Assembly (NCBI GenBank): GCA_934364795.1
Contig: CAKRMK010000014.1
Span: forward strand, 10,773-74,772
Reading direction: 5' to 3'
Length of the DNA: 64,000 nucleotides
Origin: an uncultured Blautia sp.
Lineage (GTDB): Bacteria; Bacillota; Clostridia; Lachnospirales; Lachnospiraceae
A program made the position numbers and the translations under genes. Numbering within the stretch: position 1 is the stretch's first letter; each line of letters begins with the position of its first letter. Under the pieces are notes generated by a model. That model searched no databases, was not told the origin of the DNA, and saw nothing but the letters and a program-made list of their open reading frames with translations. Positions 8,285 through 26,743 of the stretch are shown here, piece by piece.

Positions 8285-8327
8285 CTCCTTTAGTTTTGTT
8301 TTACGAGTGGAAGGTCACGAACACTCG
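8285..8327 (-). promoter_or_regulatory. preQ1-I-like riboswitch overlapping the queT ribosome site
   Basis: Read on the minus strand, a CGAGTG/CACTCG stem encloses a TTCGTGACC loop and is followed by the A-rich tail AAAACAAAACTAAAGGAG. This is the layout of the preQ1-I pseudoknot (short stem, C-rich loop, A-rich tail). The loop CCTT can pair with the AAGG of the Shine-Dalgarno sequence, implying translational repression when preQ1 is bound. Confidence 0.7.
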
Positions 8328-8437
8328 ATTCATTTTGCGCCGGGAATCGGCGGAAAAGCCGCTTAAGACCTTATTTTTCCGGGCTTTTCAACGGGCATGA
8401 GTATAGCACATTTGGGAGAGGAATGCAAGGGGAAATG
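8292..8437. repeat. Left copy of 146-bp direct repeat (queT leader)
   Basis: Bases 8292-8437 match 26598-26743 in the same orientation with about 8 to 10 mismatches. The block contains the queT promoter, the structured leader and the aptamer, and stops just before the ribosome site. It marks the left edge of the mobile element. Confidence 0.85.
8400..8428 (-). promoter_or_regulatory. queT promoter
   Basis: On the minus strand TTGCAT, a 17-base spacer and an extended TGCTATACT form a good sigma-A promoter, giving a leader of roughly 115 bases before the start codon. The same promoter is present in the right repeat copy. Confidence 0.75.
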
Positions 8438-8443
8438 TGGTCG

Positions 8444-8467
8444 TACCCCATTTGTACCCCATTTTGC
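8444..8467 (+). repeat. Sub-terminal repeat, left (integrase site candidate)
   Basis: Two tandem TACCCCATTT units (8444-8453 and 8455-8464). The same double unit occurs at 26474-26497 right after the integrase stop and again at 38545-38568 after the integrase fragment, so it is tied to this integrase as a core or arm-binding site. Confidence 0.6.
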
Positions 8468-8505
8468 ATAAGAGGTTGATTTATAGTAACGATAATATGA
8501 AAAAG

Positions 8506-8534
8506 CTTCCGGTTCTCACAACAAGGACTGGAAG
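8506..8534. terminator. Terminator of the Xre gene
   Basis: CTTCCGGTTC pairs with GACTGGAAG (one bulge and a G-T pair), flanked by CTTTTTC on the minus strand and TTTTTTT on the plus strand. It closes the Xre gene at 8580. Confidence 0.6.
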
Positions 8535-8579
8535 TTTTTTTGAGTATATATTATTAAATCGAACGTTGAAATACGCATT

Positions 8580-8915
8580 TTAAATCTTATCAGCAACTAA
8601 AGTCAGTGCTTTCATTATATTAACAAATTTACGATACTGGACATCGCCTTTGGACTTTACCTCGGAGATAAGCGCCGTTATTTCAGAGTCTGTTTCGGAG
8701 ATTTCATCAAGCAGTAGATAATCAATACTGATATTCAGAACTGAACAAATAGAGACCAGCGTCTCCAGGGACATAGCTCTGGTTCCTCTCTCAATATGTC
8801 CAAGAAAGGCTGTGGAGATTCCTGTTAATTCTGCCAGTTGCTCCTGGGAGTAGGAATGGGCAATGCGTGATTGTCTTATCTTCTGACCGATTTCTGTATA
8901 ATCAATAGATCTCAT
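8580..8915 (-). CDS. Xre-family helix-turn-helix regulator
   Basis: A 111-residue protein with an N-terminal HTH_3 domain (about residues 8-65); the recognition helix area is SQEQLAELTGISTAFLGHIE. The C-terminal half is charged and helical and may dimerise. An AAGGAGG site precedes the ATG. It is divergent from the gene at 9119, and two direct repeats in between are likely operators. In integrative elements such regulators usually hold the element silent or control cargo; which applies here is not shown. Confidence 0.88.
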   Translation of the reverse strand: MRSIDYTEIGQKIRQSRIAHSYSQEQLAELTGISTAFLGHIERGTRAMSLETLVSICSVLNISIDYLLLDEISETDSEITALISEVKSKGDVQYRKFVNIMKALTLVADKI

Positions 8916-8970
8916 AAAAAACCTCCTTGTAATAATGATTATGCAATCAAAATCTTAAAATACAAATAAA

Positions 8971-9015
8971 CTGACAGAATTAAATGTTGACTGATAGAAT
9001 CATGCAGAATATAAT
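8971..9015 (+). promoter_or_regulatory. Promoter with two operator-like repeats
   Basis: TTGACT (8987-8992), 17 bases and TATAAT (9010-9015) form a near-consensus promoter. CTGACAGAAT (8971-8980) and CTGATAGAAT (8991-9000) repeat at 20-bp spacing, two helical turns, flanking and overlapping the -35 box; they are candidate binding sites for the divergent Xre protein. Confidence 0.65.
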
Positions 9016-9118
9016 AAAAGAAAATAGAAATATAAGAAATTACATTGATAATTGTGAAAAATGATTTATTGGGTGCAGAAAAACATATTTTGTTTTAGCT
9101 GAGTTGGAGGTACGTGCT

Positions 9119-9613
9119 ATGCAACAGACTTTTGAGCTATTGGGAAGAAATGTTACATTTAAAAACAAAGAATGTATATATTTTGGGATATTAAAAAACG
9201 AAGAGTATAAAAGCAAACTGAGAGAGATTTATAACCAACAGGAACCGGAATTCCAAAAGGAACTGGAAACTTATAAGAATAGTGGTGAGACCGTAACTAA
9301 TTATGAGGGCTATTTTCGTGAAATTAGAAGAATTGGTGAAAAATATTTGAATCCAGGACTAGAATATATACTTTCAATTTTATGTCAATATAAATTATAT
9401 GATATTACGCTTGGTGATTTAACTGGCAATAAATATCAGGGGTATAGTGATTGGTATAGTAGTTTTCATGAGATATTTAAAGCGTTTCGAGAAATAAATG
9501 ATGCAGTAGCAGAAATAAAATCAAATGCAGCTGATTATAGGAATGAAAATGAAGTTAATTGGAAAAAAATGGAGAGTGGGTTGGCGGAGGCTTTGGAATA
9601 CAAGGCGCATTAA
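9119..9613 (+). CDS. Unknown protein, first half of a frameshifted gene
   Basis: I do not recognise this 164-residue reading frame. It is soluble-looking and helical with many charged residues. The ATG at 9119 follows GGAGG with a spacing of 8; an upstream TTG at 9104 overlaps that site and is rejected. The frame ends soon after a run of seven A (9563-9569), while the next frame continues with a glycine-rich membrane-like segment. One extra base in the A run would join the two into one protein of about 680 residues, so this is probably the N-terminal half of one gene. The low GC content differs from the core genes. Confidence 0.6.
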   Translation: MQQTFELLGRNVTFKNKECIYFGILKNEEYKSKLREIYNQQEPEFQKELETYKNSGETVTNYEGYFREIRRIGEKYLNPGLEYILSILCQYKLYDITLGDLTGNKYQGYSDWYSSFHEIFKAFREINDAVAEIKSNAADYRNENEVNWKKMESGLAEALEYKAH

Positions 9614-11169
9614 AAGGAGCAATGACTGCCAGTTTTATGAATGCAGCTAGTAGTGCGTTACATGGTGCTGTAAATTTAGTGGGAAATACTTTTGTGAATT
9701 ATAAATCCGGGTCTACAGTCCGTGTAGCGATAAAAACAGCAGATGATGCAAGAAGGGCTGTTTATGAAGCTCAGAAAGATAGAACTTATAGCTTGGAATA
9801 TGCGTATTCTAAATTGTTATATGTTTTAAGGGAAGTTCTGGTTGATAATGGAATAGTAGAAGCACCAGATTATGTAAAAGAAGACTCAGCAGAACAGCGT
9901 GTGTATGGTGAAAAAACCAGATATGAAAAGCAATGCAAAATGCTAAATAATGTTGAAAGAGTAGCAGATATTGAAATGAAAAAAGATATACTGGCTGAGT
10001 GTGTTCGTATTGATCCTTTGAGTTCAGATGTATATATAACAATATTAGAACATTTTCCCGAAGCTCTTAGTGAAGTAGAAAGAATTTTTAACTTCATTGA
10101 CGGGGATATTGAAGCAATAAAATATAAGACGTTAAGGAGAGTGTCTGGACTACTCCTTACTTGGTGGAAAGAGGTAGTTGAAAAGAATGGAAATTATGAG
10201 TCTCAAATAGTTCCATACAGTAAATTACAAGAAGCAAGAAAAAAACTGGCTGACGGTGAAAAAAGGACAGGATGGATTTCGCAAAGACTGCGAGATGAAA
10301 TGGATTATGTCGAGAAATGCTGTATGGTTGAATACTGCAAGGTCATAGACATTTCTACAGACTTTGATTTCAAGACTTTAAAGAAAGCTAAAATAGTAGA
10401 TGGGCAAGTTGTAATTGAAGATGAAATTTCATTAGTGGAAAAAGCTGAAGCTGCCAAAGAAGAAGTACGAAAAATATATGAATCATTAAAAGTAAATGAT
10501 GAAGAGGATTTAAAAAATGCCAAAAGCAAGATTACTGTAATTAATCGTAAATATAAATTGGCAGAAGATTTTTTAAAGGAATTAGATTATCGGCTAGCTA
10601 AAATTGATTTGGAAAAACGTACTTTTGATGGAGTATTATATGCAACTAGAGAGGAAGCCAAATCAGTAGAGGAACGTACGTTAGATGGAATAACATATGA
10701 TACGTTGGAAGAAAAAAATGAAGCAGAGAAGGAAGGCATGAAAATTCTTGAGATTCTTGAAAATGGTGTTAGTAATGGTGATGACGGAGAACTCTTAGAT
10801 GCATGGAAAAAAATTAAAACTATAAAGTTTGTGAGCAAAAATGCTGATCTGTATCTTAATACCATTGAACAGGAAATCTGTAAAAGATATCAAGAATATT
10901 TGAAGGAAAAGAAAGAATTAGAAGAGAGCCCACTGAATAAAAAAGTAGGCATTTGTGTGAGTGTAGCCCTTACAATTGGTGGAGTGGTGTTACTGCTTAT
11001 AGGGGGAATTATATTAAAAGCTATAGGATTATATATGGTGATTTCTCCTTGGAAAGTAATATATTATGATGATAAAAAGAAGTTTGAAAAACTGGAAATA
11101 ACGGTAAATAAAAAGAAAAAGATTTATGATGGCGTAAGTATGGATAATGGAAAATTAGTAATAAAATGA
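9559..11169 (+). CDS. Unknown protein, second half of frameshifted gene; C-terminal membrane helix
   Basis: This frame has no good start of its own: it opens with a TTG at 9559 without a ribosome site, or an ATG at 9622 with AAGGAG only two bases away. It begins with a glycine-rich hydrophobic stretch (WVGGGFGIQGALKGAMTAS), has a long helical middle, two copies of a short motif (RTFDGVLYATREEAKSV and RTLDGITYDTLEEKNEA) and a C-terminal hairpin of hydrophobic segments near residues 470-510. It is likely membrane-associated. I cannot assign a function. The overlap with the previous frame is best read as a frameshift, either decay or recoding. Confidence 0.6.
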   Translation: MEKNGEWVGGGFGIQGALKGAMTASFMNAASSALHGAVNLVGNTFVNYKSGSTVRVAIKTADDARRAVYEAQKDRTYSLEYAYSKLLYVLREVLVDNGIVEAPDYVKEDSAEQRVYGEKTRYEKQCKMLNNVERVADIEMKKDILAECVRIDPLSSDVYITILEHFPEALSEVERIFNFIDGDIEAIKYKTLRRVSGLLLTWWKEVVEKNGNYESQIVPYSKLQEARKKLADGEKRTGWISQRLRDEMDYVEKCCMVEYCKVIDISTDFDFKTLKKAKIVDGQVVIEDEISLVEKAEAAKEEVRKIYESLKVNDEEDLKNAKSKITVINRKYKLAEDFLKELDYRLAKIDLEKRTFDGVLYATREEAKSVEERTLDGITYDTLEEKNEAEKEGMKILEILENGVSNGDDGELLDAWKKIKTIKFVSKNADLYLNTIEQEICKRYQEYLKEKKELEESPLNKKVGICVSVALTIGGVVLLLIGGIILKAIGLYMVISPWKVIYYDDKKKFEKLEITVNKKKKIYDGVSMDNGKLVIK

Positions 11170-11221
11170 AATGCTAATTTATGAAAAATGCACTATATAA
11201 AATTTACGAAGGAGATCAGCT

Positions 11222-12253
11222 ATGAATAAAAAGATGGACTTAAAAAAGATATGTGTTCTTTCTACAATTGGTACAACTGCATTAATTGCCAATCCATTTC
11301 AATGTTTTGCAGATAATAAAGTCATTCAAGTAATATCAACTTATGATGCATTCCAAGCTACTGAGGCGGTTCCAAGTGATGATTCTGATTTTGGTATGTA
11401 TGACCCATATGGTTATGATAATTCTGAATCGGATTATGATGATTCTGATTCAAATTATTGTAATGAGGACGAATCTGATGTAGAGACAAGTGAAGAAGAG
11501 GAATTGGGGACTATGCCAGATATACACGGAATAATAGAAAAATATAATTTACAAGAATTACAGGAAGTTGCTGATGAGTGGTATTCGCAGATGCAAGGGT
11601 TAATGGATGATGTAAATAATATGGATAGCAGTGTGTGGACTATTCGTCTTTGGTACAATGATTATGATAAATGTTATGAAGGATTAGATGAAGCGTATGA
11701 TGATCAATATACCTATTTAGGATATGATCTGGTGAATAATAAGCCAGAGGGAGAGGGGTTAATATATTATGGAGACGTTTTGACGACATGGCAGGATGAA
11801 TCTTTTGCAAGAAAAACTGTTGCAAAATATATAGGAAAATTAAAAGAAGGAAAACCAGAAGGGGTTGGTTTTGAATCTTTTTGTTCAAATATATACGGTA
11901 TTGTAGATTTAACTACAGAATTTGCCTTTGGTGAATATGAAGATGGCTTGTTAAATGGAACTGGAATGTATATAACTGGAGAGGGTGATTCACAGATGTT
12001 TCTTTGTGGAGAATTTGTAGATGGTGTTGCAGAGGGAAAAGTAGCTATATATAGCCATAAAGGAAAACTGTTTGAAGGAACTATGGAAAATGGTGTTAAG
12101 TATGGTGAAGGAAAAGAATATTACGAAAATGGAAATTTGAAGTATGAAGGCGAGTTTAAAGATGGAGTATATGACGGAGAAGGCATTTTATACGACAAGT
12201 ATGGAGATGAAACTTTCAGTGGAACATGGGAAGAGGGAGTGGCTATTTTTTAA
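11222..12253 (+). CDS. Secreted MORN-repeat protein
   Basis: A 343-residue protein with a signal peptide (KKM...LKK, hydrophobic core, cleavage near CFA-DNK), an acidic Asp/Ser/Tyr-rich stretch (about residues 55-95) and at least five MORN-like repeats from about residue 190 onward, for example YIGKLKEGKPEGVGF and YEGEFKDGVYDGEG. MORN repeats form beta-hairpin ladders in binding or scaffold proteins; no enzyme domain is visible. GGAGAT precedes the ATG. It follows the frameshifted gene by 52 bases and probably shares its promoter. The gene's end looks decayed. Confidence 0.8.
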   Translation: MNKKMDLKKICVLSTIGTTALIANPFQCFADNKVIQVISTYDAFQATEAVPSDDSDFGMYDPYGYDNSESDYDDSDSNYCNEDESDVETSEEEELGTMPDIHGIIEKYNLQELQEVADEWYSQMQGLMDDVNNMDSSVWTIRLWYNDYDKCYEGLDEAYDDQYTYLGYDLVNNKPEGEGLIYYGDVLTTWQDESFARKTVAKYIGKLKEGKPEGVGFESFCSNIYGIVDLTTEFAFGEYEDGLLNGTGMYITGEGDSQMFLCGEFVDGVAEGKVAIYSHKGKLFEGTMENGVKYGEGKEYYENGNLKYEGEFKDGVYDGEGILYDKYGDETFSGTWEEGVAIF

Positions 12254-12264
12254 CATATTTTGAA

Positions 12265-12345
12265 AATATAGGAGAAGGGAACATTATATGACAAGGATGG
12301 AACTGAGTATTATAGTGGAAAGTGGAAAAAGGGGATTATGCTTCA
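12265..12345 (+). pseudogene. Remnant MORN repeats after the MORN gene
   Basis: Downstream of the stop, fragments in shifted frames read GEGTLYDKDG and YYSGKWKKGI, clear MORN units. At least two small indels separate them from the preceding gene, so the original protein was longer by one or two repeats. Confidence 0.6.
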
Positions 12346-12448
12346 TAATAATTTAAAATTTTTAATACGTAAGATAAACTCTTGTATTGATGTAATATTT
12401 CCGTGAAGGAGGAAACCAATTACATAACAAATAGTAACCTGTTATACG

Positions 12449-12478
12449 GAGCTGAGACGTGAGTATGCGTTTCAGCTC
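12449..12478 (+). terminator. Terminator before the DUF5688 operon
   Basis: GAGCTGAGACG pairs with GCGTTTCAGCTC and is followed by TTTTTAC. It separates the MORN gene from the next operon; since it is only about 30 bases before the DUF5688 start it could also act as an attenuator. Confidence 0.65.
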
Positions 12479-12505
12479 TTTTTACTTTCATCAAGGAGGA
12501 ATGAA

Positions 12506-13459
12506 ATGTTAAACTACAAAGAATTCATGGAAACGTTAAAACAGACAATTTATTCACAGACAGGCTGGAAATCTGACTGTATGGGGAGTCTGACGGATGA
12601 AGGACCGACATCGGATACGGCATTGGAGATTCATTATATGAATACCGACAGAGATGCATCTGTTATTTCCATCAGAGTTCCGGAACTGTATGCCAGATAC
12701 CAGATCGGAGAAAGTATTACATCCATAGCGGATTCAGTTATCGGGACAATCCGTGAGGATGACAGATTCTGTCTGGCACAGGCGGTCAGCCAGTGCAAAA
12801 ATTTCGAGCTGGCAAAAGAGCATTTATTTATTAGTGCAGAAAGTATTTACAATGAGGAAGCACTGACACAGTGCATATATCAGACTGTCGGTGATATTGC
12901 AATTTGTCCAAACCTTAAACTGCTAGACCGAAACGGTAAGATGATCGGACTGAAAGTTGCCCCGGAATTTCTGAAATTATGGAAGACAGATGAAAACGAA
13001 GTAATAAAGGAGGCCGTGAGGAATTCATCAAAATTATATCCTGCCAGATATTACAACTTTCTGAAAGCCCTGTTTAAGCAGGAGTATAAAGGGGAAGATT
13101 TCATGGAAGAGGACAGTTCTTCCGTCCTTCTGGAAGGAAGTGGGGACAAGTGTATCAGCACCACCATACTACAGCATGGTGCAGCTGCAATTTTCTATCC
13201 GGGAGTCTGCAGAAAAATCTGTGAAGTATTAGGTGCAGAAAGTTTGTATCTGGTGTTCACATCTGTCCATGAAGTTATGGTATCTGCAGTAAGGGCAGAT
13301 ATGTCAGTGGAAGAAATGCAGAGAAGACTGCACAACGGATCCAGGACAGTAAAAGAACCAGAAGAGAAGCTGACAGAACAGGTTTATTGCTATGATGGAA
13401 AAAGTAACTGCATCCGTCTGGCAAAAGGTGAGGGAAAAGTGTTTCAGTGTGATGAATAA
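12506..13459 (+). CDS. DUF5688 family protein (first copy)
   Basis: A 317-residue soluble protein that I place in the DUF5688 family, common in Lachnospiraceae mobile elements. The most conserved part is near residues 230-260, with AIFYPGVCRKICEVLGAESLYLVFTSVHEVM. A second member lies at 16741, and the same segment there reads AIFYPGVAKTFCHKLGADGLYLVF. No enzyme motif is recognisable. AAGGAGG precedes the ATG. It opens a cluster with DUF932, YqaJ exonuclease and a Rad52-like protein, so a role in element replication or recombination is plausible but unproven. Confidence 0.8.
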   Translation: MLNYKEFMETLKQTIYSQTGWKSDCMGSLTDEGPTSDTALEIHYMNTDRDASVISIRVPELYARYQIGESITSIADSVIGTIREDDRFCLAQAVSQCKNFELAKEHLFISAESIYNEEALTQCIYQTVGDIAICPNLKLLDRNGKMIGLKVAPEFLKLWKTDENEVIKEAVRNSSKLYPARYYNFLKALFKQEYKGEDFMEEDSSSVLLEGSGDKCISTTILQHGAAAIFYPGVCRKICEVLGAESLYLVFTSVHEVMVSAVRADMSVEEMQRRLHNGSRTVKEPEEKLTEQVYCYDGKSNCIRLAKGEGKVFQCDE

Positions 13460-13472
13460 GGGGGAATCGTAA

Positions 13473-13553
13473 TTGCAGAGAATCATTATCAGTATTTTAT
13501 CAGCAGCAGTTGTAATCTGGGACGAGATCATGAAAAGAAAAGGAGAGAAATAA
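13473..13553 (+). CDS. Small hydrophobic peptide, 26 residues
   Basis: A TTG start follows GGGGGA at a good spacing and opens a 26-residue frame with a hydrophobic stretch (IIISILSAAVVIW) then a basic tail. It fits between two tightly packed genes and its stop is two bases before the next ATG. It could be a small membrane peptide or chance. Confidence 0.4.
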   Translation: MQRIIISILSAAVVIWDEIMKRKGEK

Positions 13554-13555
13554 TT

Positions 13556-14968: not shown

Positions 14969-15021
14969 AGACGCAAGAAATAAAAGTCTGGAAAATGAAA
15001 GAAAACAGGAGGACAGGAATT

Positions 15022-15957
15022 ATGAGACGAAAAATGACACCGACAGGGAACCTTACAAGAGAAGAATGGTTACAGCTTAGAAGAAACGGAATCGGTGGTT
15101 CCGATGCTTCTGTGATCATGGGAAAAAATCCTTACAGAAGTATTTTACAGCTGTGGGAAGAAAAAACAGGAAAGCTGCCAGTTACAGATAACGGAAACGA
15201 GTTTACTTACTGGGGAAATGTGATGGAGCCGATTATCCGTAAGGAATTTATGAACCGTACCGGGCTTAAGGTGCGCCAGAAACATGCAATGATTTTTCAC
15301 GAAGAGTATCCGTATCTGTTTGCAGATGTAGACGGAATTGTTACAGACGAGCGGGGTGAGAAATGTATCTTTGAAGCAAAGACAGCGAGTCAGTATAAGG
15401 CTGACCAGTGGGAAAATGGTGTACCCGAGGAATATGTATTGCAGGTACAGCACTACCTGGCGGTATGCGGCATGAATAAGGCATATATAGCGGCACTGAT
15501 TGGTGGCAATAAATTTGTCTTCACCATAATTTACAGAGATGATTCCTTAATTGAAGAACTGATCGTCAAGGAAAAGGAGTTCTGGGAAGAGTGCGTACTT
15601 ACGGACACAGAGCCTATTGTAGATGATTCTGAGGCAACCCAGGAATATCTGAATACAAAATATAGCAATTCTGTTGCAAGTACGATTCAGCTTAATGTAG
15701 ACATGAAAAAAGTTATAGCAGAGTACCAGGACGTTGATTCAAAAGTCAAAGAACTTGAGAAAAAGAAAACTGGACTTGCCAATCAGATCAAGGCTGTTAT
15801 GGGGGCATACGAGACTGGTGAACTAGATGGAATTGTTGTTTCCTGGAAGAAATTCAGCCGGGAATCTGTGGACGGCAGAAGGCTTCGAAGGGAAAAACCA
15901 GAAATATTTGCAGAGTATAGCAATGTCAGCTCATATAGAAAATTGTCTGTTGCATAG
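15022..15957 (+). CDS. YqaJ-family phage recombination exonuclease
   Basis: A 311-residue YqaJ / lambda-exonuclease family nuclease that resects double-stranded DNA 5' ends for single-strand annealing. The N-terminal REEWLQLRRNGIGGSDASVI is diagnostic, and the PD-(D/E)XK core shows as LFADVDGIV followed by IFEAKTA, with EYVLQVQHYLAV after it. The C-terminal third is coiled. AGGAGG lies before the ATG at 15022, which is preferred over 14995. Its partner is the annealing protein encoded next. Confidence 0.92.
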   Translation: MRRKMTPTGNLTREEWLQLRRNGIGGSDASVIMGKNPYRSILQLWEEKTGKLPVTDNGNEFTYWGNVMEPIIRKEFMNRTGLKVRQKHAMIFHEEYPYLFADVDGIVTDERGEKCIFEAKTASQYKADQWENGVPEEYVLQVQHYLAVCGMNKAYIAALIGGNKFVFTIIYRDDSLIEELIVKEKEFWEECVLTDTEPIVDDSEATQEYLNTKYSNSVASTIQLNVDMKKVIAEYQDVDSKVKELEKKKTGLANQIKAVMGAYETGELDGIVVSWKKFSRESVDGRRLRREKPEIFAEYSNVSSYRKLSVA

Positions 15958-15978: not shown

Positions 15979-16713
15979 ATGGCAGAAAAAAGAATCCGGA
16001 ATTTAAATCCGGAAGAGATTGAGTGCCGTGTAGGTGCAATCATGGAGCAGGGGATTACTCTGCTCCTTTATAAAAATGCAAGGGTAGACCAGACCATACT
16101 GGACGAAGTGTTTGGAATCTGCGGATGGCAGAGACGGCATAATATGATCGGAAATGAACTGTACTGTATCCTCAGTATCTGGGATGATGAGAAAAAACAG
16201 TGGGTTCAGAAGGAAGATGTAGGAACAGAAAGCGACTATGAAAAGGCGAAAGGTGCCGCATCGGACTCTTTTAAACGGGCCTGCTTTAATATTGGAATTG
16301 GACGGGAGCTGTATTCGGCTCCTTTTATTTATATTCCCATAAATAAAGTGCGGATGGGCGAAAAGAATGGGAGAAAGTCTGTGAAGGACAGCTTTTCTGT
16401 GAAGATGATACAGACCTCTGCCGATAAGGTGATCACAGCACTGGAGATTGTAAACCAGAGAAGTGAAAAGGTGTTTAGCTATCAGATGTCAGAAGCAGCT
16501 TCCATACAAGTGGCAGATTCTGAGGGTGAGAAAGAGCAAGTCCAGAGAATATCAGAGAGGGAAATTCAGATCTTGTATGCGGAGCTTGGAAGAACCGGGG
16601 TTACGATGCAGCAGATCCTGAAAAGGTATGAAATCGCATCCATACAGGAACTGGACCAGGTGACTTATAAGAGAGCACTCAATGGCCTGAAACGGACGAA
16701 AAATGCAGCATAA
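15979..16713 (+). CDS. Rad52/Sak-like single-strand annealing protein
   Basis: A 244-residue protein whose N-terminal part matches the phage Rad52/Sak group: a GWQRRH segment, then a segment ending in KGAASDSFKRACFNIGIGRELY. These proteins bind single-stranded DNA and anneal complementary strands. It lies 21 bases after the YqaJ exonuclease, forming the classic exonuclease plus annealase pair. The C-terminal 70 residues look like a separate small helical domain. The pair may help circularisation, replication or recombination of the element. Confidence 0.85.
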   Translation: MAEKRIRNLNPEEIECRVGAIMEQGITLLLYKNARVDQTILDEVFGICGWQRRHNMIGNELYCILSIWDDEKKQWVQKEDVGTESDYEKAKGAASDSFKRACFNIGIGRELYSAPFIYIPINKVRMGEKNGRKSVKDSFSVKMIQTSADKVITALEIVNQRSEKVFSYQMSEAASIQVADSEGEKEQVQRISEREIQILYAELGRTGVTMQQILKRYEIASIQELDQVTYKRALNGLKRTKNAA

Positions 16714-18974: not shown

Positions 18975-19712
18975 ATGAAAGTCTATGGGTATTGTAGAAT
19001 TTCTACATCCAAGCAATCAATGGAGCGGCAGATCAGAAATATCAAGCTGGCATATCCAGACGCAGTTATTGTAAAAGAAACATACACAGGAACGAAAATA
19101 CAGGGACGAAAAGAATTTGAAAAGCTGCTCAAAATAGTTTCTACTGGTGATACGCTGGTCTTTGACTCGGTATCTCGCATGAGCCGTACTGCACAGGAGG
19201 GGTACGAAATGTACCAGAAACTATATAACCAAGGAGTATCCCTGGTATTTTTGAAAGAACCTCATATAAATACAAGCACTTATCAACAGGCAATGGAAAA
19301 TCAGTTGTCCGTAAATGTAAAAACAGGCGATCAAGCTTCTGAAGAATTATTGTCTGGTATATTCGGTGCTCTTAACCGATATATGCTGAATCTTGCAAAA
19401 AGGCAGATTCAGCTTGCCTTTGAACAGGCAGAGAAAGAAGTTACCGATTTACACCAAAGAACACGTGAAGGAATCCAGACTGCGAAACTAAATGGAAAGC
19501 AGATAGGATTGCCTTGCGGAACAAAGTTGATTACTGAGAAGTCCGTGAAATCAAAGGAAATGATACAAAAATATAGTCGGGACTTTTCTGGTGGATTGAA
19601 TGATGCAGAGTGTATCAAGCTTATTGGAATATCAAGAGGAAGTTATTACAAGTACAAGCGTGAACTGAAAAATATGTACATGTCAGATACTTCCAAAAGT
19701 ATTCGGGAATAA
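18975..19712 (+). CDS. Serine recombinase (resolvase/invertase family)
   Basis: A 245-residue small serine recombinase. The catalytic Ser is residue 10 in YCRISTSKQS, followed by conserved Arg residues (the DSVSRMSRTAQEG segment). The C-terminal 60 residues form a short helix-turn-helix region ending in ISRGSYYKYKREL. It could resolve dimers or invert a segment; no nearby pair of crossover sites was obvious. The element has a tyrosine integrase as well, so this enzyme is probably not the integrase. AAGGAA precedes the ATG. Confidence 0.9.
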   Translation: MKVYGYCRISTSKQSMERQIRNIKLAYPDAVIVKETYTGTKIQGRKEFEKLLKIVSTGDTLVFDSVSRMSRTAQEGYEMYQKLYNQGVSLVFLKEPHINTSTYQQAMENQLSVNVKTGDQASEELLSGIFGALNRYMLNLAKRQIQLAFEQAEKEVTDLHQRTREGIQTAKLNGKQIGLPCGTKLITEKSVKSKEMIQKYSRDFSGGLNDAECIKLIGISRGSYYKYKRELKNMYMSDTSKSIRE

Positions 19713-20035: not shown

Positions 20036-20545
20036 TTAAAGCTGTAGGTCACGATGTATATATGGATAGTAATGCTTATGAATGGCATTTACTAAACTGA
20101 GAATGTTTTGTTTTATTTCTTTTAATTCTGATTTGGAAGTATGCAATTTTTTTCCTGTTTGAAAACTTACTGAATTGATTGCATAGTGAATATGCAGATT
20201 GTCAGTATCATTATGAATAGCGAAAAATATCTGATATTCATTAGAAAATTGCTGTGCGATAGAATCCGCAAGCTCTATTGCACAAATGCGATTGAATCTG
20301 TAGTCTTTCGGGAAAGATATAATCATATGATACATCCTTCGTTTAGAATTTTTCTTATAGTACTTTTGTACCTGTATCATCTGATGTGGAGCCTTTTGGT
20401 AACTGGTACTGACACCATAAGCGTTACGATAATAGACTTTTTGTTTATGGTGTTTGCCATGTCCGGAAATGTAGGCAATTAGTTGTTCGATATCCTTGTC
20501 ACGGGGATAAGTATGCTGTTTAATATGAATTACAATTTTTCCCAT
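20036..20545 (-). CDS. Short MobA-type relaxase
   Basis: A 169-residue relaxase consisting of little more than the nuclease domain. The metal-binding HUH motif is clear in IHNDTDNLHIHYAINS, the candidate nicking Tyr lies in the N-terminal part, and the C-terminal helicase or primase-like region of full MobA proteins is missing. Relaxases cut one strand at oriT and lead it into a recipient. An AGGAGG site lies before the ATG and its start overlaps the stop of the MobC gene, so the two are coupled. It may be a minimal active relaxase or a truncated one; its proper stop and intact motif favour activity. Confidence 0.8.
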   Translation of the reverse strand: MGKIVIHIKQHTYPRDKDIEQLIAYISGHGKHHKQKVYYRNAYGVSTSYQKAPHQMIQVQKYYKKNSKRRMYHMIISFPKDYRFNRICAIELADSIAQQFSNEYQIFFAIHNDTDNLHIHYAINSVSFQTGKKLHTSKSELKEIKQNILSLVNAIHKHYYPYIHRDLQL

Positions 20546-20802
20546 AATTTGTCGACCTCCTGTTCAAGAACGGGATCGTTATCGTAGGCTTCCAGTATGT
20601 AATTTAGGATATCCTGAACCTGGCATAGGATTTGGGGGAGCGAGCCGCAGATATTCTTACTGTTTGATAGTATGGTACATTTACGTATATAATCCGACAT
20701 ATCCATATTCATATCGGAAGCATTCTTCTGAAGTAGTATCTTTTCCTTTGGAGATACTCGTATGTTGATTTGTTCTGTCTTGTTAGATCTTTTGAGTTTC
20801 AT
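20530..20802 (-). CDS. MobC-like mobilization accessory protein
   Basis: A 90-residue protein with a ribbon-helix-helix start (KTEQINIRVSPKEKILLQKNA) followed by MNMDMSDYIRKCTIL, the pattern of MobC accessory proteins that bind oriT and help the relaxase. A GGAGG site precedes the ATG. Its stop overlaps the relaxase start by 16 bases. Confidence 0.8.
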   Translation of the reverse strand: MKLKRSNKTEQINIRVSPKEKILLQKNASDMNMDMSDYIRKCTILSNSKNICGSLPQILCQVQDILNYILEAYDNDPVLEQEVDKLWEKL

Positions 20803-20841
20803 AATAAAATCCTCCTTCTATATACTTATAGTATTATATAT

Positions 20842-20881: not shown

Positions 20882-21156
20882 TTTTTATATGCGAGTGTAT
20901 GTAGAACGTGCCAGAGTCGGAAACGTTGCAAAATTTTTGTATATACATTCGCTTTAGTAGAATGTAATAGCTGGAAATAAAATTCTATTCAGAACCGGAA
21001 AAAAGGAGCAAATTATTTGTATTTATGAGACGTATGTGTGAAATGGTGGGAAATTTCCCATTTTTTTGAAGAAAGAGATATTAAATGTTGTATTTGTTTA
21101 TGGTAATATAGAGTTATTATAAGGTAATTGTGTCTTTCATTGGGAGGAGGAATAAG

Positions 21157-22419
21157 ATGGAGTCAGAAAATATATTTAAAAGTGCTATAGCAGTTGTGTG
21201 TAACGATTTAGGATTGCTGCAAAAAGAATTGGCAAATTTTCTTGTGATAAGTACAGGAGGATTATCAAAATATAGCGAGCTACCCTATAAATGGAGAAGG
21301 ATTGATAATCGCAGAGTGATATTACTTATATTATATTTCGGGGAGAATTCAGTATCGTCTTATGATGCGTTTAAAAAGAGACTTAACCAAGAAGTTTCTA
21401 TTAATCTACAGGCAGAGGAAGATATAAGGAAGAAATTTGAGGAAGCACGAGAAAAGGCATTCAAAATTGTGAGAGAAAGATTGGAGGACTTGGATAAAGA
21501 TAAAGTGAGAGCGACGAATGCGGAGAGAAAAAAATTTCGTGAGAGAATATCTTTAAAATTTCCAAAGCAAGTAGAAATATATGAGAAGGGAAAAGAAACG
21601 GGAGAAATTGAGGTAAAAGTAGACAGTACGTTATCGGAGAATCAAATAGTTGCAGAAGCAGACAGTGTATTGGCAGAGGATCAAACCGATGTAGAAGCGG
21701 ACAGTGTATTGGCGGAGAATCAAACTGCTGCAGAAGCAGACAGTGTATTGGCAGAGGATCAAACCGCTGTAGAAGCGGACAGTGTATTGGCAGAGAATCA
21801 AACAGTTGCAGAAGCAGACAGTGTGTTGCCAGAGAATCAAACAACTGTAGAAGCAGATAATGGATTAATGGAAAAACAAGCAGTTGAGAGCGTGCAGAAT
21901 AATAAAACAGACGAAGCTTCGGAAGCGATACCGTTAGATGAATATTCCCAGGTGCAACGGGAGGCTGAAAAAGAATATAAGGCTGCATGTGTAATGACGA
22001 CACATGACGAAGAATACATACAACATATGCTACGAGCTGCTGAATTGGGGCATCGGGATGCAAAATATTATCTGGGAGTTGCGTATATGGATGGGGATAA
22101 CGTAATTCGAGATCCAGAAAAAGCTGTGACATATTTTTTTGAAGCTGGAAAAATGGGATCTATTAATGCAGTTTATAAATTGAAAATATGTTATGCCGAG
22201 GGAATTGGCGTTGAAAAAAATGAAAGAAACGCAACATGGCTGTTGAGGATTCTTAGAAAAAATCACTATCAACCAGACAGCCCTACAGTAGATATTAGCT
22301 TAGATCCAAAGGTAAAATTAGCAAATAATTATAAAAAGGAATTTAAGGAGTTTATTCCTAAAACACTGAATGATAGAAAACTTCAAGAACTTATTTTAAC
22401 ATGGAAAAATAAAATTTGA
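21157..22419 (+). CDS. Sel1-repeat protein with HTH-like N-terminus and tandem repeats
   Basis: A 420-residue protein with three parts: an N-terminal segment resembling a phage-type helix-turn-helix (LGLLQKELANFLVISTGGLSKY), a charged linker leading into six 13-residue acidic repeats with core DSVLAENQT (about residues 156-233), and C-terminal Sel1-like repeats (AAELGHRDAKYYLGVAYMDG and the next unit with YAEGIGVEKNE). Sel1 repeats bind protein partners. The ATG at 21157 follows GGAGGAGG. A related but broken gene lies at 37403. Function unknown; it may be a regulator or defence scaffold. Confidence 0.7.
   Translation: MESENIFKSAIAVVCNDLGLLQKELANFLVISTGGLSKYSELPYKWRRIDNRRVILLILYFGENSVSSYDAFKKRLNQEVSINLQAEEDIRKKFEEAREKAFKIVRERLEDLDKDKVRATNAERKKFRERISLKFPKQVEIYEKGKETGEIEVKVDSTLSENQIVAEADSVLAEDQTDVEADSVLAENQTAAEADSVLAEDQTAVEADSVLAENQTVAEADSVLPENQTTVEADNGLMEKQAVESVQNNKTDEASEAIPLDEYSQVQREAEKEYKAACVMTTHDEEYIQHMLRAAELGHRDAKYYLGVAYMDGDNVIRDPEKAVTYFFEAGKMGSINAVYKLKICYAEGIGVEKNERNATWLLRILRKNHYQPDSPTVDISLDPKVKLANNYKKEFKEFIPKTLNDRKLQELILTWKNKI
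21622..21891 (+). repeat. 39-bp in-frame tandem repeat
   Basis: Six full 39-base units start at 21622, 21661, 21700, 21739, 21778 and 21817, followed by a degenerate seventh. Units alternate between GAGGATCAAACC and GAGAATCAAAC types, suggesting a 78-base higher-order period. Because 39 is a multiple of three, unit gain or loss keeps the frame. Confidence 0.95.
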
Positions 22420-22431
22420 AATTACAAGAAG

Positions 22432-22467
22432 GAGCCTTTAATTCTAAAGTGGTGGAATTAAAGGCTC
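22432..22467 (+). terminator. Terminator of the Sel1-repeat gene
   Basis: GAGCCTTTAATTC (22432-22444) and GAATTAAAGGCTC (22455-22467) form a perfect 13-bp stem followed by TTATTTTG. Confidence 0.9.
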
Positions 22468-22528
22468 TTATTTTGACTTTGTAGCATAAACAGGTATGGA
22501 ACATATGCCGATTGCGTAGCGTATTTTA

Positions 22529-22617
22529 CTACGGAAACTTGTGGTTGCCGTTTAATGTGTATTGTGGAAACTGCGGAAATTAGCGGTTTCCGTAGATAGT
22601 ACTATGCGGAAATTTTG
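22529..22617 (+). repeat. Iteron-like motif cluster before the replication-like genes
   Basis: The motif CGGAAAC/T recurs: ACGGAAACTT at 22531, TGGAAACTG near 22565, GCGGAAATT near 22573, the reverse GGTTTCCG near 22585 and GCGGAAATTT near 22606. The cluster lies in a 430-base gene-free stretch (22468-22895) directly upstream of a coiled-coil protein and a P-loop protein, a reasonable place for an origin of replication. Confidence 0.4.
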
Positions 22618-22895
22618 AGTTGTAATAGTTGTAACTAATTAAATTGATAGTATAGTAAACGTATGATAGAATCAAATCATCAATCAGGGATACCTTATGG
22701 CAGGATATGTAATATATCCGTAGGCTGAACTGATTGTGCAGGATGTGAATATCTTATTGAGAAGGGATTGTCCTAGCAGAAAAACTTCGCTTCATAATAA
22801 GAAAGTTCAGTTCTGCTGAAAATAACGAGCGCTCAGATTTATTTTCAAAATAAAATTTTGTACCACAATAACCATTGTAGAAGGAGGAAAAAATT

Positions 22896-23396
22896 ATGGA
22901 AGCTAATAATGAGTTAAACAAAGACGAAATTAACTGGGAGGATGCTTACGGCGACCAGTGCAAACTGTACAAAAAAACGAAGAAAAAGCTAAAAAAGAAT
23001 CGCCACAAGATTAAGCAGCTAAAGAAGGCAAAAAAGGATGCCTGTGGTTTCGAGAAGCGTCAGGTAAATAAGAAGCTTCTAAAACACCAAAAGCAGGAAA
23101 AAGTGCTTCGGGATGAAGTTAAGGCGTTAAAAAAGGTTCTTTATACTACGAAGAACGAGTTGTCAAAACAACAGATGGAGAACCAGCAACTGAAAACGCA
23201 ATCATTGTATGAGAACCAGATCATTGAACTGAAGGCGCAAATGAAAAGCCGTGATCAGATTACAATGATGTTGTTACAAGAAGCTCTGCCAGGACTGGTA
23301 GATAAGTATTGGAAACATGGCGGTTCTTCCAACGGCAGAAAATCCAAGTCAATAGTTGATGATGTACCTTTCAAAATTACTGATTTGGATGAGTAA
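22896..23396 (+). CDS. Lysine-rich coiled-coil protein
   Basis: A 166-residue protein that is basic and strongly helical from about residue 25 to 125 (runs such as KKTKKKLKKNRHKIKQLKK), predicted to form a coiled coil. I do not recognise a family. GGAGG precedes the ATG and the gene lies 54 bases ahead of the P-loop protein gene, so both are likely cotranscribed. It may be a replication accessory or DNA-bridging factor (inference from charge and context). Confidence 0.65.
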   Translation: MEANNELNKDEINWEDAYGDQCKLYKKTKKKLKKNRHKIKQLKKAKKDACGFEKRQVNKKLLKHQKQEKVLRDEVKALKKVLYTTKNELSKQQMENQQLKTQSLYENQIIELKAQMKSRDQITMMLLQEALPGLVDKYWKHGGSSNGRKSKSIVDDVPFKITDLDE

Positions 23397-23407
23397 AAAA
23401 TACATAT

Positions 23408-23431
23408 GGTGGCTGGAAAATCCCAGCCACC
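23408..23431 (+). promoter_or_regulatory. Hairpin just before a ribosome site
   Basis: GGTGGCTGG pairs perfectly with CCAGCCACC around a 6-base loop, 8 bases before the AGGAGGTG of the P-loop gene. No T-run follows, so it is more likely to affect translation or RNA processing than termination. Confidence 0.5.
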
Positions 23432-23450
23432 AGGACTAGGAGGTGCCAAG

Positions 23451-24995
23451 ATGGACAAATTCAAGGAACAGGATAGCTTCCTTTATTATAAGAATGAACT
23501 GGTGGCAACTTTTATTCCTGTGATAAGTTTTGTAGAAGTACTCCATAATCGGGTAACTGACAGCTACACATACAAATATCATGTTTCTATAAAAACGGTA
23601 GACTGTGAGATGGGGCAGGAGCGGGTATTTGATTCTTTGCAAAACATTTCTTTTCACAAGCATTGGAAGGAATGTGCAGGAAGCGATAATCTATCTAAAC
23701 GTCAGAAAAAGCTACTGAATGAATACCTGTACTTGCTGGGAAGCCGGGCACCTAAAAGGGAACAGGAATGTTTTAACAGAATCACCTGTCAGGAAACTTC
23801 TGCGATGCGGGAAAACGCTTGGTTCGAATTGGCTGATTATTTAGTAAACTTACTGACCATAAAGGGAAAGGAAACGGAAGTACTTTTTCTGTGCAAGATG
23901 GCTGCGCTTATGAAGCCATTATTTGAAAAAGCAAACCATCCGATGAATTTTTTTATATTTCTGCATGGTCATTCGGGAGTCGGTAAGACAGTGCTGGCAA
24001 AACTGTTCTTTGTTCAAGATTCTGGACAGGATAAGAATTTCAAAATGGACAGCCAATTGGATGTGGAAAAAGCGCTTCAATATTATCAAGGTGACACGGT
24101 GCTTATTGATGATTATCATCCAGAAGCTTCCGATTACAGAAAAAAGAAACAAAATTCAGTAATGGATTTGCTTGCGCGCCAAACGGATTGTAATGGAAAA
24201 GCACTTGCTGTTTCAACTGCCGAGATTCGTGAAGGATGTTTTTCGCTCCAAGACCGTGAGATTCAAATTGAAATCAGTGATACAGAAGTAGACTGGGAAA
24301 AATTTGCATATGTCCAGAAGAATATTATTCAGTTTAAGAAGCTTTTATATATCGTATGTCATGAAATATATGCAAACCAAGGACAAATAATGACGCTGAT
24401 CGCCAATAATACCAGGCACAAAGCAGGCACTTTCCGTATTACATACTATATAGAAACCATGAAATTAGTGGTGGTTATTTTAGAGTTCGTGCTTAGGAAA
24501 ACGCCACTTGGAAATTTGCTGGAAAAGAAAATGGGAAACACCACCATGGGACAACATTGGTATCAGTTGCTGGATGAAATAGAAAATCGACAGAATCGGT
24601 ATATGATGTGCCTCAAGGACAATGAAAATGGAATAGATTTAATAACGGTGTTTTTCAGAATGGTCAATGATGAGAAAGTTTTTCGGAGAGTCCCAGGAGA
24701 GCTTATGAAAAAGCATTCTGATAACAATGTGAAAGATATTTATTCGTTTGGAGCCGTTATTTATGTTGCGGAGCGAACACTTCTTGTAGGCATACAAAGA
24801 TATTTTGAAAATGAACCAGAGCAAAGGAAAGAGGTGAGAACCTATAAAAAGAAAATGATCGAAGCTCTAAAGGCAGAAGAGATATTGTTAGTAGATAATT
24901 CAAAAGCTAATACTAAGAAAAAGAATGGAAAACGTTTCTATGAAATTGATTATAAACGTTTGAAATATTTCTGTCAGCTTCAAGATGCAAAGTAA
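23451..24995 (+). CDS. P-loop ATPase, probable replication protein
   Basis: A 514-residue protein with a Walker A motif HGHSGVGKTVLAK near residue 182 and a Walker B-like TVLIDDYHPEA near 220, followed by LARQTDCNGKALAVST, which resembles the sensor region of superfamily 3 helicases and VapE/D5-like phage proteins. A C-terminal basic tail could be a winged helix. ATG at 23451 follows AGGAGGTG; an upstream GTG at 23406 is rejected. Together with the upstream motif cluster it may replicate the excised circular element. Confidence 0.65.
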   Translation: MDKFKEQDSFLYYKNELVATFIPVISFVEVLHNRVTDSYTYKYHVSIKTVDCEMGQERVFDSLQNISFHKHWKECAGSDNLSKRQKKLLNEYLYLLGSRAPKREQECFNRITCQETSAMRENAWFELADYLVNLLTIKGKETEVLFLCKMAALMKPLFEKANHPMNFFIFLHGHSGVGKTVLAKLFFVQDSGQDKNFKMDSQLDVEKALQYYQGDTVLIDDYHPEASDYRKKKQNSVMDLLARQTDCNGKALAVSTAEIREGCFSLQDREIQIEISDTEVDWEKFAYVQKNIIQFKKLLYIVCHEIYANQGQIMTLIANNTRHKAGTFRITYYIETMKLVVVILEFVLRKTPLGNLLEKKMGNTTMGQHWYQLLDEIENRQNRYMMCLKDNENGIDLITVFFRMVNDEKVFRRVPGELMKKHSDNNVKDIYSFGAVIYVAERTLLVGIQRYFENEPEQRKEVRTYKKKMIEALKAEEILLVDNSKANTKKKNGKRFYEIDYKRLKYFCQLQDAK

Positions 24996-25069
24996 ATAAA
25001 ACAAGCGATATATTATCTGGATGAACTGAATAAAACAACTCACGATGTGAACGAAAGGAGTAATGTAAG

Positions 25070-25267
25070 ATGAGAAAAATAAAAATTGAAACACCAGAAA
25101 TGGAACCACTGGCAATTAGCCAGGAACAGGCAAAGGCACGCTATAATATGGGAACTTATATGATTGACAAGGTTGCTGGTGATGCGAAAGCGATAGTCCG
25201 TATAGGGCGTAGAAAAGTATATCTGGTAGGTAAGCTTGATGACTATATCAATAAGCTGGCAGAATGA
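25070..25267 (+). CDS. Excisionase-like DUF6462 protein
   Basis: A 65-residue protein with a single DNA-binding helix-turn-helix: SQEQAKARYNMGTYMIDKVA then VRIGRRKVYLVGKLDDYINK. Such proteins sit directly before Tn916-type integrases and act as excisionase or recombination directionality factor, as here (57 bases upstream). GAAAGGAG precedes the ATG. Confidence 0.8.
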   Translation: MRKIKIETPEMEPLAISQEQAKARYNMGTYMIDKVAGDAKAIVRIGRRKVYLVGKLDDYINKLAE

Positions 25268-25323
25268 CATAGGTGCGCTCACTCAGCTGTTATGGCTGGG
25301 TGGGCAGAAAAGGAGTAGATAGA

Positions 25324-26463
25324 ATGGCAAAAGATGCAAGAGGACGAGAGCTTCCAAAGGGAATCAGACAGCGGGATAATGGAACCTTTGAGGGCCGTGT
25401 TGCTGTGGATGGAAAGAGAGTTAGTGTTTATGGTAATACAGTGACAGAGGTGAAAAAGAAAATCGCTGAGACCAAGTATAAGATGGAACATGGCATTTAT
25501 GTAGATCAATGCAATATTTCATTTGATGAGTGGTTCAATACCTGGTTGGAAGAGTACAAGAAAAACAGTGTAAAAAGTGGTACTGTTTTTTCATATAAAA
25601 ATTATTACAAGTATTACATAAAGGATGAGTTGGGAATGCGGAAGCTCCGGGATCTGCGGGGCGAACACATACAGCACCTTTATAACAAATTGAAACAAGA
25701 TGGAATTGCGACTTCGACTATTAAAATTGTTTCCGCTGTACTCAGTGGCTGTATGAAGCAGGCTTTAAAAAATGGGTTAATAGAAAGAAACCCAGTACCG
25801 TTGGCAATTTTACCGAAAGCAGGTGTAAAAAAGCAAAGTAGGGTACTGACCCAGGAAGAACAGACGCTGTTTCTTAAGTATGCAAAAGCAAAGGATAGCT
25901 ATTTATATAATTTCTTTGCGCTGGCATTGCGGACAGGAATGCGTAATGGAGAACTGCGTGGATTAAAGTATTCTGATATCGACAAAAAGAAAATGGTGAT
26001 TCATGTGGTTAGAACTTTGAAGTATGAAGAAGGAAGGGGATTATACGAGGATACACCGAAAACTGCTAGTTCTACGAGAGATATTCCGCTGACGGAAGAT
26101 ATGCTTCAGATTATTGAAAACCAGAAAAAATTCTGGGGGATATCCAAAATTATCAATAAAAATGAATATGTATTTCACCAGGGAGATAAAAGACCTATTA
26201 GCAGAGACTGTGTACAGAGTGAGATTGATCGGGTGATTGCATTGATAAGAGAAGATGGAATTAATTTCGAACGCTTTACCTGTCATGGATTCAGACATAC
26301 GTTTGCCACCAGAGCTATAGAATCTGGTATGCAGCCACAGACGCTGAAAACAATTCTGGGGCATTCTACACTGAGTATGACGATGGATTTATATTCTCAT
26401 GTATTACCGAGCACCAAAGCTGAAGAGATGGAAGCTATTTCGGGTGCATTCAAGATTTCATGA
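25324..26463 (+). CDS. int: Tyrosine integrase, Tn916 Int-like
   Basis: A 379-residue site-specific recombinase. It has an N-terminal arm-binding domain (KGIRQRDNGTFEGRVAVDGK), a core-binding helical domain and a catalytic domain with Arg207 in RTGMRNGEL, the HGFRHTF box, LGHSTLSM and the nucleophile Tyr357 in MDLYSHV. ATG at 25324 follows AAGGAG; the frame extends upstream to 25273 without a ribosome site. It lies at the right end of the element, beside the excisionase gene, and would integrate and excise it. Its last 685 bases are repeated at 37851-38535. Confidence 0.95.
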   Translation: MAKDARGRELPKGIRQRDNGTFEGRVAVDGKRVSVYGNTVTEVKKKIAETKYKMEHGIYVDQCNISFDEWFNTWLEEYKKNSVKSGTVFSYKNYYKYYIKDELGMRKLRDLRGEHIQHLYNKLKQDGIATSTIKIVSAVLSGCMKQALKNGLIERNPVPLAILPKAGVKKQSRVLTQEEQTLFLKYAKAKDSYLYNFFALALRTGMRNGELRGLKYSDIDKKKMVIHVVRTLKYEEGRGLYEDTPKTASSTRDIPLTEDMLQIIENQKKFWGISKIINKNEYVFHQGDKRPISRDCVQSEIDRVIALIREDGINFERFTCHGFRHTFATRAIESGMQPQTLKTILGHSTLSMTMDLYSHVLPSTKAEEMEAISGAFKIS

Positions 26464-26473
26464 ATGGGGTACG

Positions 26474-26497
26474 CACCCCATTTCTACCCCATTTCGC
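26474..26497 (+). repeat. Sub-terminal repeat, right (integrase site candidate)
   Basis: CACCCCATTT and TACCCCATTT in tandem, 10 bases after the integrase stop, matching the pair at 8444-8467 in the same orientation. Confidence 0.6.
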
Positions 26498-26527
26498 TTT
26501 AAATCTGACAAATACAGACAGAAAGGA

Positions 26528-26559
26528 ATACCGCAGAAAACGCTGATTTTCTGCGGTAT
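26528..26559. terminator. Terminator of the integrase gene
   Basis: ATACCGCAGAAAA (26528-26540) and TTTTCTGCGGTAT (26547-26559) form a perfect 13-bp stem. The T-run after it is weak. Confidence 0.75.
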
Positions 26560-26597
26560 TCGTATGGTTTTGTGGAAGATAAATTCTTATTTTTTTA

Positions 26598-26743
26598 AGT
26601 TTTGTTTTACGAGTGGAAGGTCACGAACACTCGATTCATTTAGCGCCGGGAATCGGCGGAAAAGCCGCTTAAGACCTTATTTTTCTGGGCTTTTCAACGG
26701 TTGAGAGTATAGCACATTTGGGAAAGGAATGCAAGGGGAAATG
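26598..26743. repeat. Right copy of 146-bp direct repeat (orphan queT leader)
   Basis: This copy has the same promoter, structured leader and preQ1-I-like stem as the queT leader, read on the minus strand, but the tail breaks off before the ribosome site (AAAACTT then A-run) and no queT follows. It points towards the 3' end of the integrase gene. It marks the right edge of the mobile element. Confidence 0.85.

Follow-up and report, generated by a model that had tools for sequence, protein, structure and literature searches.

An 18.3-kb integrative element in the genome of an uncultured Blautia sp. lies between two copies of the leader of the preQ1 gene queT. We analysed it within a 64,000-nucleotide stretch of DNA (GenBank assembly GCA_934364795.1, contig CAKRMK010000014.1, positions 10,773 to 74,772; hereafter the window, in which all coordinates are numbered). 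The chromosomal site used by the tyrosine integrase of the element is probably the preQ1 class I riboswitch aptamer in the queT leader, a reading to which we assign a probability of about 85%. Both the duplication of the aptamer and the recurrence of this arrangement in other genomes are shown by sequence comparison.

The duplicated leader and its aptamer

The element is bracketed by leader copies at 8289-8437 (left) and 26595-26743 (right), both on the minus strand. They fall within a direct repeat of 152 nt (8289-8440 and 26595-26746) with 94% identity and a spacing of 18,306 bp. An earlier reading of this DNA without database searches (the original prediction) had described a duplicated leader block of 146 bp; the block is present on both sides, at a length of 148-152 bp. 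As read by eye, each copy has a sigma-70-like promoter with a -35 element TTGCAT, a 17-bp spacer and a -10 element TATACT, located at 8423-8428 and 8400-8405 in the left copy (8400-8428 overall) and at 26729-26734 and 26706-26711 in the right copy. The left copy, referred to as linked, continues into the ribosome site AAAGGAG and then queT (7774-8280, minus strand; Pfam QueT PF06177, E 7e-51), the gene downstream of the targeted leader. The right copy, referred to as the orphan, has a promoter of its own and an aptamer, lacks a ribosome site, and starts to diverge directly behind ...AAAACAAAACT. The original prediction was accurate on both counts, having joined only the left copy to a ribosome site and queT and placed the break of the right copy in the A-rich tail of its aptamer. 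The two aptamers, each 36 bp on the minus strand, occupy 8292-8327, with the P1 stem CGAGTG/CACTCG, and 26598-26633, and represent the putative cores of the left and right attachment sites (attL and attR).

The Rfam model PreQ1 (RF00522) spans the left aptamer end to end with 25.3 bits, below the gathering score of 39, and in scans at gathering it matched neither the window leader nor any of 14 related loci. The P1 stem was examined for covariation in 19 aptamer rows picked for diversity, 15 of them distinct and one, L163, without queT behind it (G and L numbers are our handles for genomes and loci). P1 cells were paired in 98.9% of cases, both sides had changed in 18 cells (the shuffles averaged 5.3), and the covariation score was 0.581; none of these levels was reached by any of 500 shuffles. 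Coarser measures of the same stem were unremarkable, with four pairs changed on both sides and five further pair types (121 and 128 of 500 shuffles as high, respectively). The aptamer edges match type I of preQ1 class I, in which, according to passages of the published description, UU lies above the 5' strand and the 3' strand is preceded by UC (PMC11625349). With a covarying P1, type I edges, an A-rich tail and a location upstream of the preQ1 gene queT, the predicted identity of the aptamer is well supported despite the sub-gathering Rfam score. L163 itself (genome G351, 6410-6445) is a preQ1-like aptamer with a different stem, TGACAG/CTGTCA.

Two further motifs characterize the leaders. The promoter-like motif is kept in 72 of 81 linked leaders, and AAGGTC is found in 53 of the 81 (2/81 on the opposite strand; shuffled mean 1.86), and in 42 of these 53 its first base lies 43-46 nt upstream of P1. 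AAGGTC is complementary to GACCTT of the aptamer loop and is a candidate for an alternative pairing partner in switching; we regard this role as only possible because the adjacent variable base does not covary, as judged by eye.

Recurrence in related genomes and the origin of the leaders

The arrangement was sought in 397 genomes of one bacterial family, taken as one per species, many of them drafts and some with contigs ending at the leader. The family, reached by way of a Sutcliffiella genome and its phylum, may be Lachnospiraceae-like, judging by names among the integrase matches. The aptamer pattern with one mismatch allowed occurred in 159 of the 397, and the reversed control pattern in none among the matches listed. 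At least two aptamer copies were present in 13 genomes, ten of which hold an orphan. No orphan was counted in G312, with two queT-linked copies, in G351, whose second copy is a different aptamer, or in G565, with copies at contig ends. Together with the window, G650 and G660, this gives 13 orphan aptamers, a small set of pairs that were found by sequence identity, divergent aptamers being missed. Among the examined loci, 94 distinct copies had enough sequence behind them: 80 are directly followed by a ribosome site, and the 14 that are not are the 13 orphans and the G351 copy.

In seven of the 13 cases (the window, G463, G431, G413, G660, G354 and G337), an integrase or what remains of one faces the orphan and ends at a distance of 134-181 bp, measured from last codon to aptamer edge; in the window, the distance from the integrase stop codon to the orphan aptamer is 135 bp. 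The integrase lies 4 kb from the orphan in G343, and only an N-terminal integrase fragment, 1.7 kb away, is found in G341. The 36-bp core is identical between the two copies in seven pairs (the window, G463, G413, G354, G362, G650 and G422). Exact identity is confined to the aptamer, ending at both of its edges, in G463, G413, G362 and G422, with diverged similarity further upstream in the G413 leader (75% over 75 nt), and both G463 copies carry the stem GGTGAG/CTCACC, which is rare among the loci. In ungapped comparison, the match continues upstream of the aptamer for 58/60 nt in the window and 60/60 nt in G650, with 10-24/60 elsewhere.

The original prediction had proposed looking for other integrases of this type beside queT leaders, and such integrases do exist. 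The window integrase matched 38 of the 397 genomes at E 1e-60 or better. Identity reached at least 50% in ten of them, and six of the ten have a queT-linked aptamer within 11 kb (G463, G422, G431, G413, G343 and G351). No aptamer was found in any of nine loci with matches below 50%, examined with about 8-10 kb on each side.

Both ends of the element also carry matching direct repeats. In the window, TACCCCATTT occurs twice at 8442-8467 and again twice at 26472-26497 (plus strand, repeat family D7), the centre of the right repeat lying 136.5 bp from the aptamer centre. Arm-type repeats match at both ends in 11 of the 13 pairs, each with an element-specific sequence (strings chosen by eye), such as GGGGTAC in the window, TTTTGGAC in G431 and TTTTGGCG in G660; the measurement covered all pairs but G341. 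The right arm distance is 136.5-138.5 bp in 8 of 11. An attachment site symmetric around the aptamer, an idea taken from the window alone, is not general, as the distances from aptamer to arm range over 102-139.5 bp on the left and 127.5-148.5 bp on the right. Upstream of linked leaders, exact 8-mer tandem repeats stood at the expected place in 12/79, against 0/79 in a control stretch, two of the 12 (L024 and L169) looking unlike the rest; a looser detector allowing one mismatch proved unspecific (25/79 against 15/79 in the control region). These repeats are putative arm sites of the integrase. On the orphan side, a terminator-like hairpin at 26526-26561 (minus strand, -22.2 kcal/mol), pointing toward the orphan promoter and followed by a T-rich stretch in the leader sense, may act as a terminator. 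Hairpins of -12 kcal/mol or below with a T-rich stretch stand behind the orphan in nine of the 13 cases and weaker ones in four, hairpins here and in the window being scored without a shuffled control. By eye, many orphans also have a TTTAT-like motif about 14 nt after the core on the element side, perhaps a candidate binding site for integrase or excisionase.

Which leader came with the element was read from relatives with a single leader. G659, a congener of G431, aligns to it at 97.6% identity across 5.1 kb reaching to the linked aptamer and, outward from the orphan leader, at 97.0% and then 95.6%; the intervening 6.9 kb is absent in G659. Over the 230 nt upstream of the aptamer, G659 agrees with the G431 orphan in 208 of 232 columns and with the linked copy in 128 of 316. 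Since the G659 leader resembles the orphan, the G431 orphan holds the resident leader, and queT is now on that of the element. For G463, blastn found in G666 the promoter part of the orphan (71% over 119 nt) joined to the aptamer and queT (85%), and no match between G666 and the linked leader of G463. At the level of sequence, these comparisons show that queT in G431 and G463 owes its present promoter and leader to the element, with the earlier resident pair left in the orphan. The proposal that the element may supply the leader of queT is thus supported by G659 for G431 and by G666 for G463, and for the window by analogy: the left-copy promoter would be element-borne, judging from the same two comparisons. 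The four single-leader relatives inspected (G640, G636, G659 and G666) have one leader each; none has the tandem pair of leaders at an empty site that the original prediction had named as speaking against it.

In the mechanism that we propose, the attachment site of the circular form would be ordered as integrase end, arm repeat, terminator-like hairpin, aptamer core, leader, promoter and arm repeat. Integration would recombine the core of the element with the aptamer ahead of queT. The gene side would then read element promoter, element leader, aptamer, chromosomal ribosome site and queT; on the far side, the former resident promoter and leader, severed from queT, would read into the element hairpin beyond the integrase. 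queT would retain a riboswitch-type leader, and each further insertion would swap promoter and leader. We also infer continued regulation of queT and present-day excision of the element.

The insertion in the window would, by analogy, have followed the same course as those of its relatives. Over the 100 nt upstream of the aptamer, the window agrees with G640 (queT protein 93% identical) at 73 positions, with G616 (78%) at 96 and with G636 at 95, the queT proteins of the last two being 78-79% identical. The window leader therefore seems to have a history other than that of the queT gene, because the upstream agreement is higher in G616 and G636 than in G640. In both of its copies the window has a leader of the G616/G636 type, a pattern compatible with two replacements in succession. 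A presumed end of an older element adjoins the orphan at 26745-26881 (plus strand); it consists of 21 bp (TTTTAAATTCCATTGTGGGTA) and a 41-codon open frame, for which Pfam gave weak matches below cut-off (Phage_pRha, E 0.017; PheRS_DBD1, E 0.0049). The 21-mer is common to the stretch upstream of the G616 leader, where it adjoins a doubled arm-type repeat and an integrase piece (Pfam E 1.9e-5, just under cut-off). Positions 26595-26760 matched L087 in blastn at 92.8%, mostly over the leader itself. The orphan leader of the window thus seems to border the end of an older element, and leaders at this site may have been replaced more than once.

Crossover position and alternative explanations

Several observations weigh against the aptamer as integration site or against the leader exchange built on it. 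The core differs in six of the 13 pairs: at stem bases 3 and 22 in G431 and G660, at loop base 11 in G343, at base 8 in G337, at base 36 in G223 and at four stem positions (3, 5, 20 and 22) in G341. G223 and G650 yielded no integrase in the stretch examined, and the arm repeats of G650 differ between its ends. The G422 integrase stands at the queT end, with the orphan on another contig; G362 has an integrase fragment 1.1 kb from the orphan and its two aptamers on opposite strands. G659 has arm-type repeats upstream of its leader and about 0.7 kb extra between leader and flank; because of these repeats, its resident leader may itself be that of an earlier element. Against G666, the two G463 copies score alike in a 120-nt global alignment (62/160 and 59/137), and only blastn of the promoter part tells them apart. 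For the window, no empty site from its own species was found; the single-leader relative nearest by queT, G640, is another species, and the ribosome-site side is equal to G640, G636 and G616 (29/30 each) and silent on descent. The clade-mate integrases of G276, G397, G566 and G383 have no aptamer in the stretch examined. On an integrase tree with nine queT-associated rows and 13 others, queT targeting required five changes, a count as low being reached in 30 of 500 shuffles, whose mean was 7.3. It does not form one clade and is weakly clustered; one supported group takes in all queT rows plus four rows with no aptamer nearby. queT targeting has been gained or lost repeatedly, or some insertions have decayed or moved. 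A one-to-one tie of integrase clade to target is ruled out by this tree.

The crossover more likely took place within the 5' arm of P1 or beside it (about 8322-8328 in the window), with the aptamer body and the ribosome site chromosomal. The linked stem of G431, CGTGTG/CACACG, is that of G659, its nearest relative (97%), and the orphan stem is CGAGTG/CACTCG; G660 shares both its linked and its orphan stem with G431. Loop base 11 of G343 is A in the linked copy and in the congener G703, and C in the orphan, a base found in neither congener. If the resident aptamer stays with queT, linked copies that match relatives put the crossover at or 5' of the differing bases, which explains G431, G343 and G660 without extra changes. 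Congeners are not uniform, G661 (genus of G431) having the linked stem CGAGTG and G702 (genus of G343) the loop base T, a point that favours the other position considered, a crossover in the A-rich tail after the stem with the element bringing the whole aptamer. Also in favour of the tail, 11 of 13 pairs lose identity at one and the same base behind AAAACAAAACT, and the exceptions are close by (G223 one base earlier, G660 three bases later). The stems of G341 differ as whole units and are compatible with both positions. Given the matches of linked copies to G659 and G703, we consider a crossover in the tail unlikely; the 5' edge is suggested by few cases and by parsimony. The original prediction had placed the break in the A-rich tail of a leader target. 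The target is probably the riboswitch aptamer, and the crossover more probably lies at its 5' edge. Tn916-type integrases tolerate mismatches in the overlap, and such tolerance would be needed for G431 and G660. Strand exchange in the middle of the loop was rejected, since hybrid stems would then be expected in G431, G660 and G341, yet the differing stems are each intact, unless overlap mismatches were resolved later.

Homologous recombination or segmental duplication of the leader could also have produced the copies, the element arriving later or by another route. The copies of the window are 94% identical across about 150 bp and those of G650 show no difference over 60 nt or more ahead of the aptamer, both exceeding an integrase core, and the right flank of the window contains a decayed uvrB duplicate (27346-28100, on the right-hand side of the orphan; its two pieces share about 80% identity with segments of 50475-52463). 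Such an origin is nevertheless very improbable: exact identity is limited to the 36-bp aptamer in four pairs, G413 with its more distant upstream similarity included, and integrase, arm repeats and orphan recur jointly though the integrases are only about 50-61% identical. A different objection accepts the insertion and questions its meaning, in that the leader may be a passive landing site, with queT expression kept by chance and the promoter and leader of the element being captured host DNA without a selected role. Leader replacement can disturb a gene, as passages on a prophage in a preQ1 riboswitch call altered expression likely (PMC10117131). Linked leaders, also most of those beside element arms, keep the promoter-like motif and AAGGTC at the frequencies given above despite differing sequences; because the motifs persist while sequences differ, selection on linked leaders is suggested, and a passive site appears quite unlikely.

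The use of the queT aptamer by the integrase invites comparison with known systems. Some known integrative elements bring along the 3' end of a tRNA gene, a piece of the target in their attachment site that keeps the target whole. The original prediction drew this analogy, and it holds, related integrases being found at queT leaders in the same arrangement. The queT elements likewise carry a target piece in the attachment site and leave the target whole, but they would mend a regulatory RNA leader by supplying its 5' part with the promoter. A prophage of Enterococcus cecorum, mentioned in passing, sits in a PreQ1 riboswitch (PMC10117131). It shares insertion into a preQ1 riboswitch and differs in that the downstream gene encodes a nucleoside hydrolase, that expression is said likely to change and that the passages concerned describe no restored leader. 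The islands and prophages at dusA replace the 5' end of their target gene by new sequence, as stated in passages of PMC4482086, and share a dedicated integrase family and promoter-like sequences before and after insertion. Their core lies in coding sequence, whereas that of the queT elements is an aptamer upstream of the start codon and what is exchanged is a promoter with an untranslated leader; the window element, having the queT leader as its target, is not of the dusA type. Some streptococcal integrative and conjugative elements in rbgA and ebfC change the sequence upstream of the gene including the promoter (PMC4701971), but expression is expected to be affected, with no resupply, and the word riboswitch has 0 occurrences in the text available from that source.

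Among the matches listed, the literature searched contained no report of elements rebuilding a riboswitch leader; a 2020 study on regulated gene integrity, known by citation only, could list this target. As far as the passages available from these sources go, 5'-end replacement and prophage insertion into a preQ1 riboswitch are each known, and the combination of both was not found. We judge it somewhat probable that a widespread group of elements in one bacterial family docks at this riboswitch with a promoter-leader-terminator cassette and repeatedly swaps the queT control region while leaving it under preQ1 control. If so, mobile elements would be a source of regulatory variation for preQ1 uptake, and the principle of tRNA-gene insertion would extend to a regulatory RNA, an aptamer hairpin of conserved sequence serving as docking site and the element rebuilding the control region of the gene. 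Promoters and riboswitch leaders would thereby have a natural way of being replaced horizontally, and orphan riboswitches without a gene would be accounted for. The reading also predicts that other riboswitches act as docking sites, and the integrases may be tools for insertion at a defined leader.

Gene content and further integrases

The window element has an integrase at one end and a direct repeat of the target at both, the layout of a tyrosine-integrase element. The integrase gene (25273-26463, plus strand; Pfam Phage_integrase, E 2.3e-28), its 3' end toward the orphan leader, adjoins a gene for an excisionase-like protein (25070-25267, plus strand; phrog_16129, E 3.3e-4), and a helix-turn-helix regulator is encoded at the left end (8580-8915, minus strand; Pfam HTH_3, E 2.2e-14). 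Phage-type recombination genes are represented by a YqaJ/RecE-like exonuclease (14995-15957, plus strand; Pfam YqaJ, E 1.3e-40; phrog_434) and a Rad52/Erf-like annealing protein (15979-16713, plus strand; phrog_1097). A serine resolvase-type recombinase (18975-19712, plus strand; Pfam Resolvase, E 3.9e-22) is followed by a NikA-like mobilization protein (20530-20802, minus strand; Pfam NikA-like, E 4.3e-10) and a short, 169-aa MobP-like relaxase domain (20036-20545, minus strand; Pfam Relaxase, E 4.5e-22; NCBIfam relaxase models below cut-off), and the relaxase may have been cut short. Conjugation genes were absent from the 19 larger element proteins scanned with Pfam, and defence families from the eight element proteins examined. 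The element is best described as integrative and is perhaps mobilizable.

Searches for related loci with single window proteins turned up one weak relative each when the integrase was used, and no relative for queT. A phage reservoir was rejected: no viral contig had the exact aptamer pattern or the exact leader core, and no plasmid matched the leader. Two matches in a phage collection (L002 and L003) are unannotated scaffolds with the aptamer ahead of queT; the window integrase had no match there at E 1e-8, at most 2.5 kb of each scaffold being inspected.

Integrases elsewhere in the family have other neighbours. Those of G276 (L145) and G383 (L147) have arm repeats, and by eye the next gene resembles a vitamin-transporter S component in the former and acetolactate synthase in the latter; other leaders may serve as targets for integrases of this type. 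A more distant integrase in G509 (42% identical) has a 65-bp repeat adjoining a tRNA-Gly gene, and a 76-bp direct repeat surrounds another in G331 (L150), where no tRNA gene was found. The window itself holds a second, N-terminally truncated integrase copy (37852-38535, plus strand; 96% identical in DNA over 717 bp). It has a similar arm repeat, adjoins another gene and lacks a leader copy. Inside the element, five tandem copies with 39-bp spacing occupy 21605-21877 within a frame that carries a Sel1 repeat.

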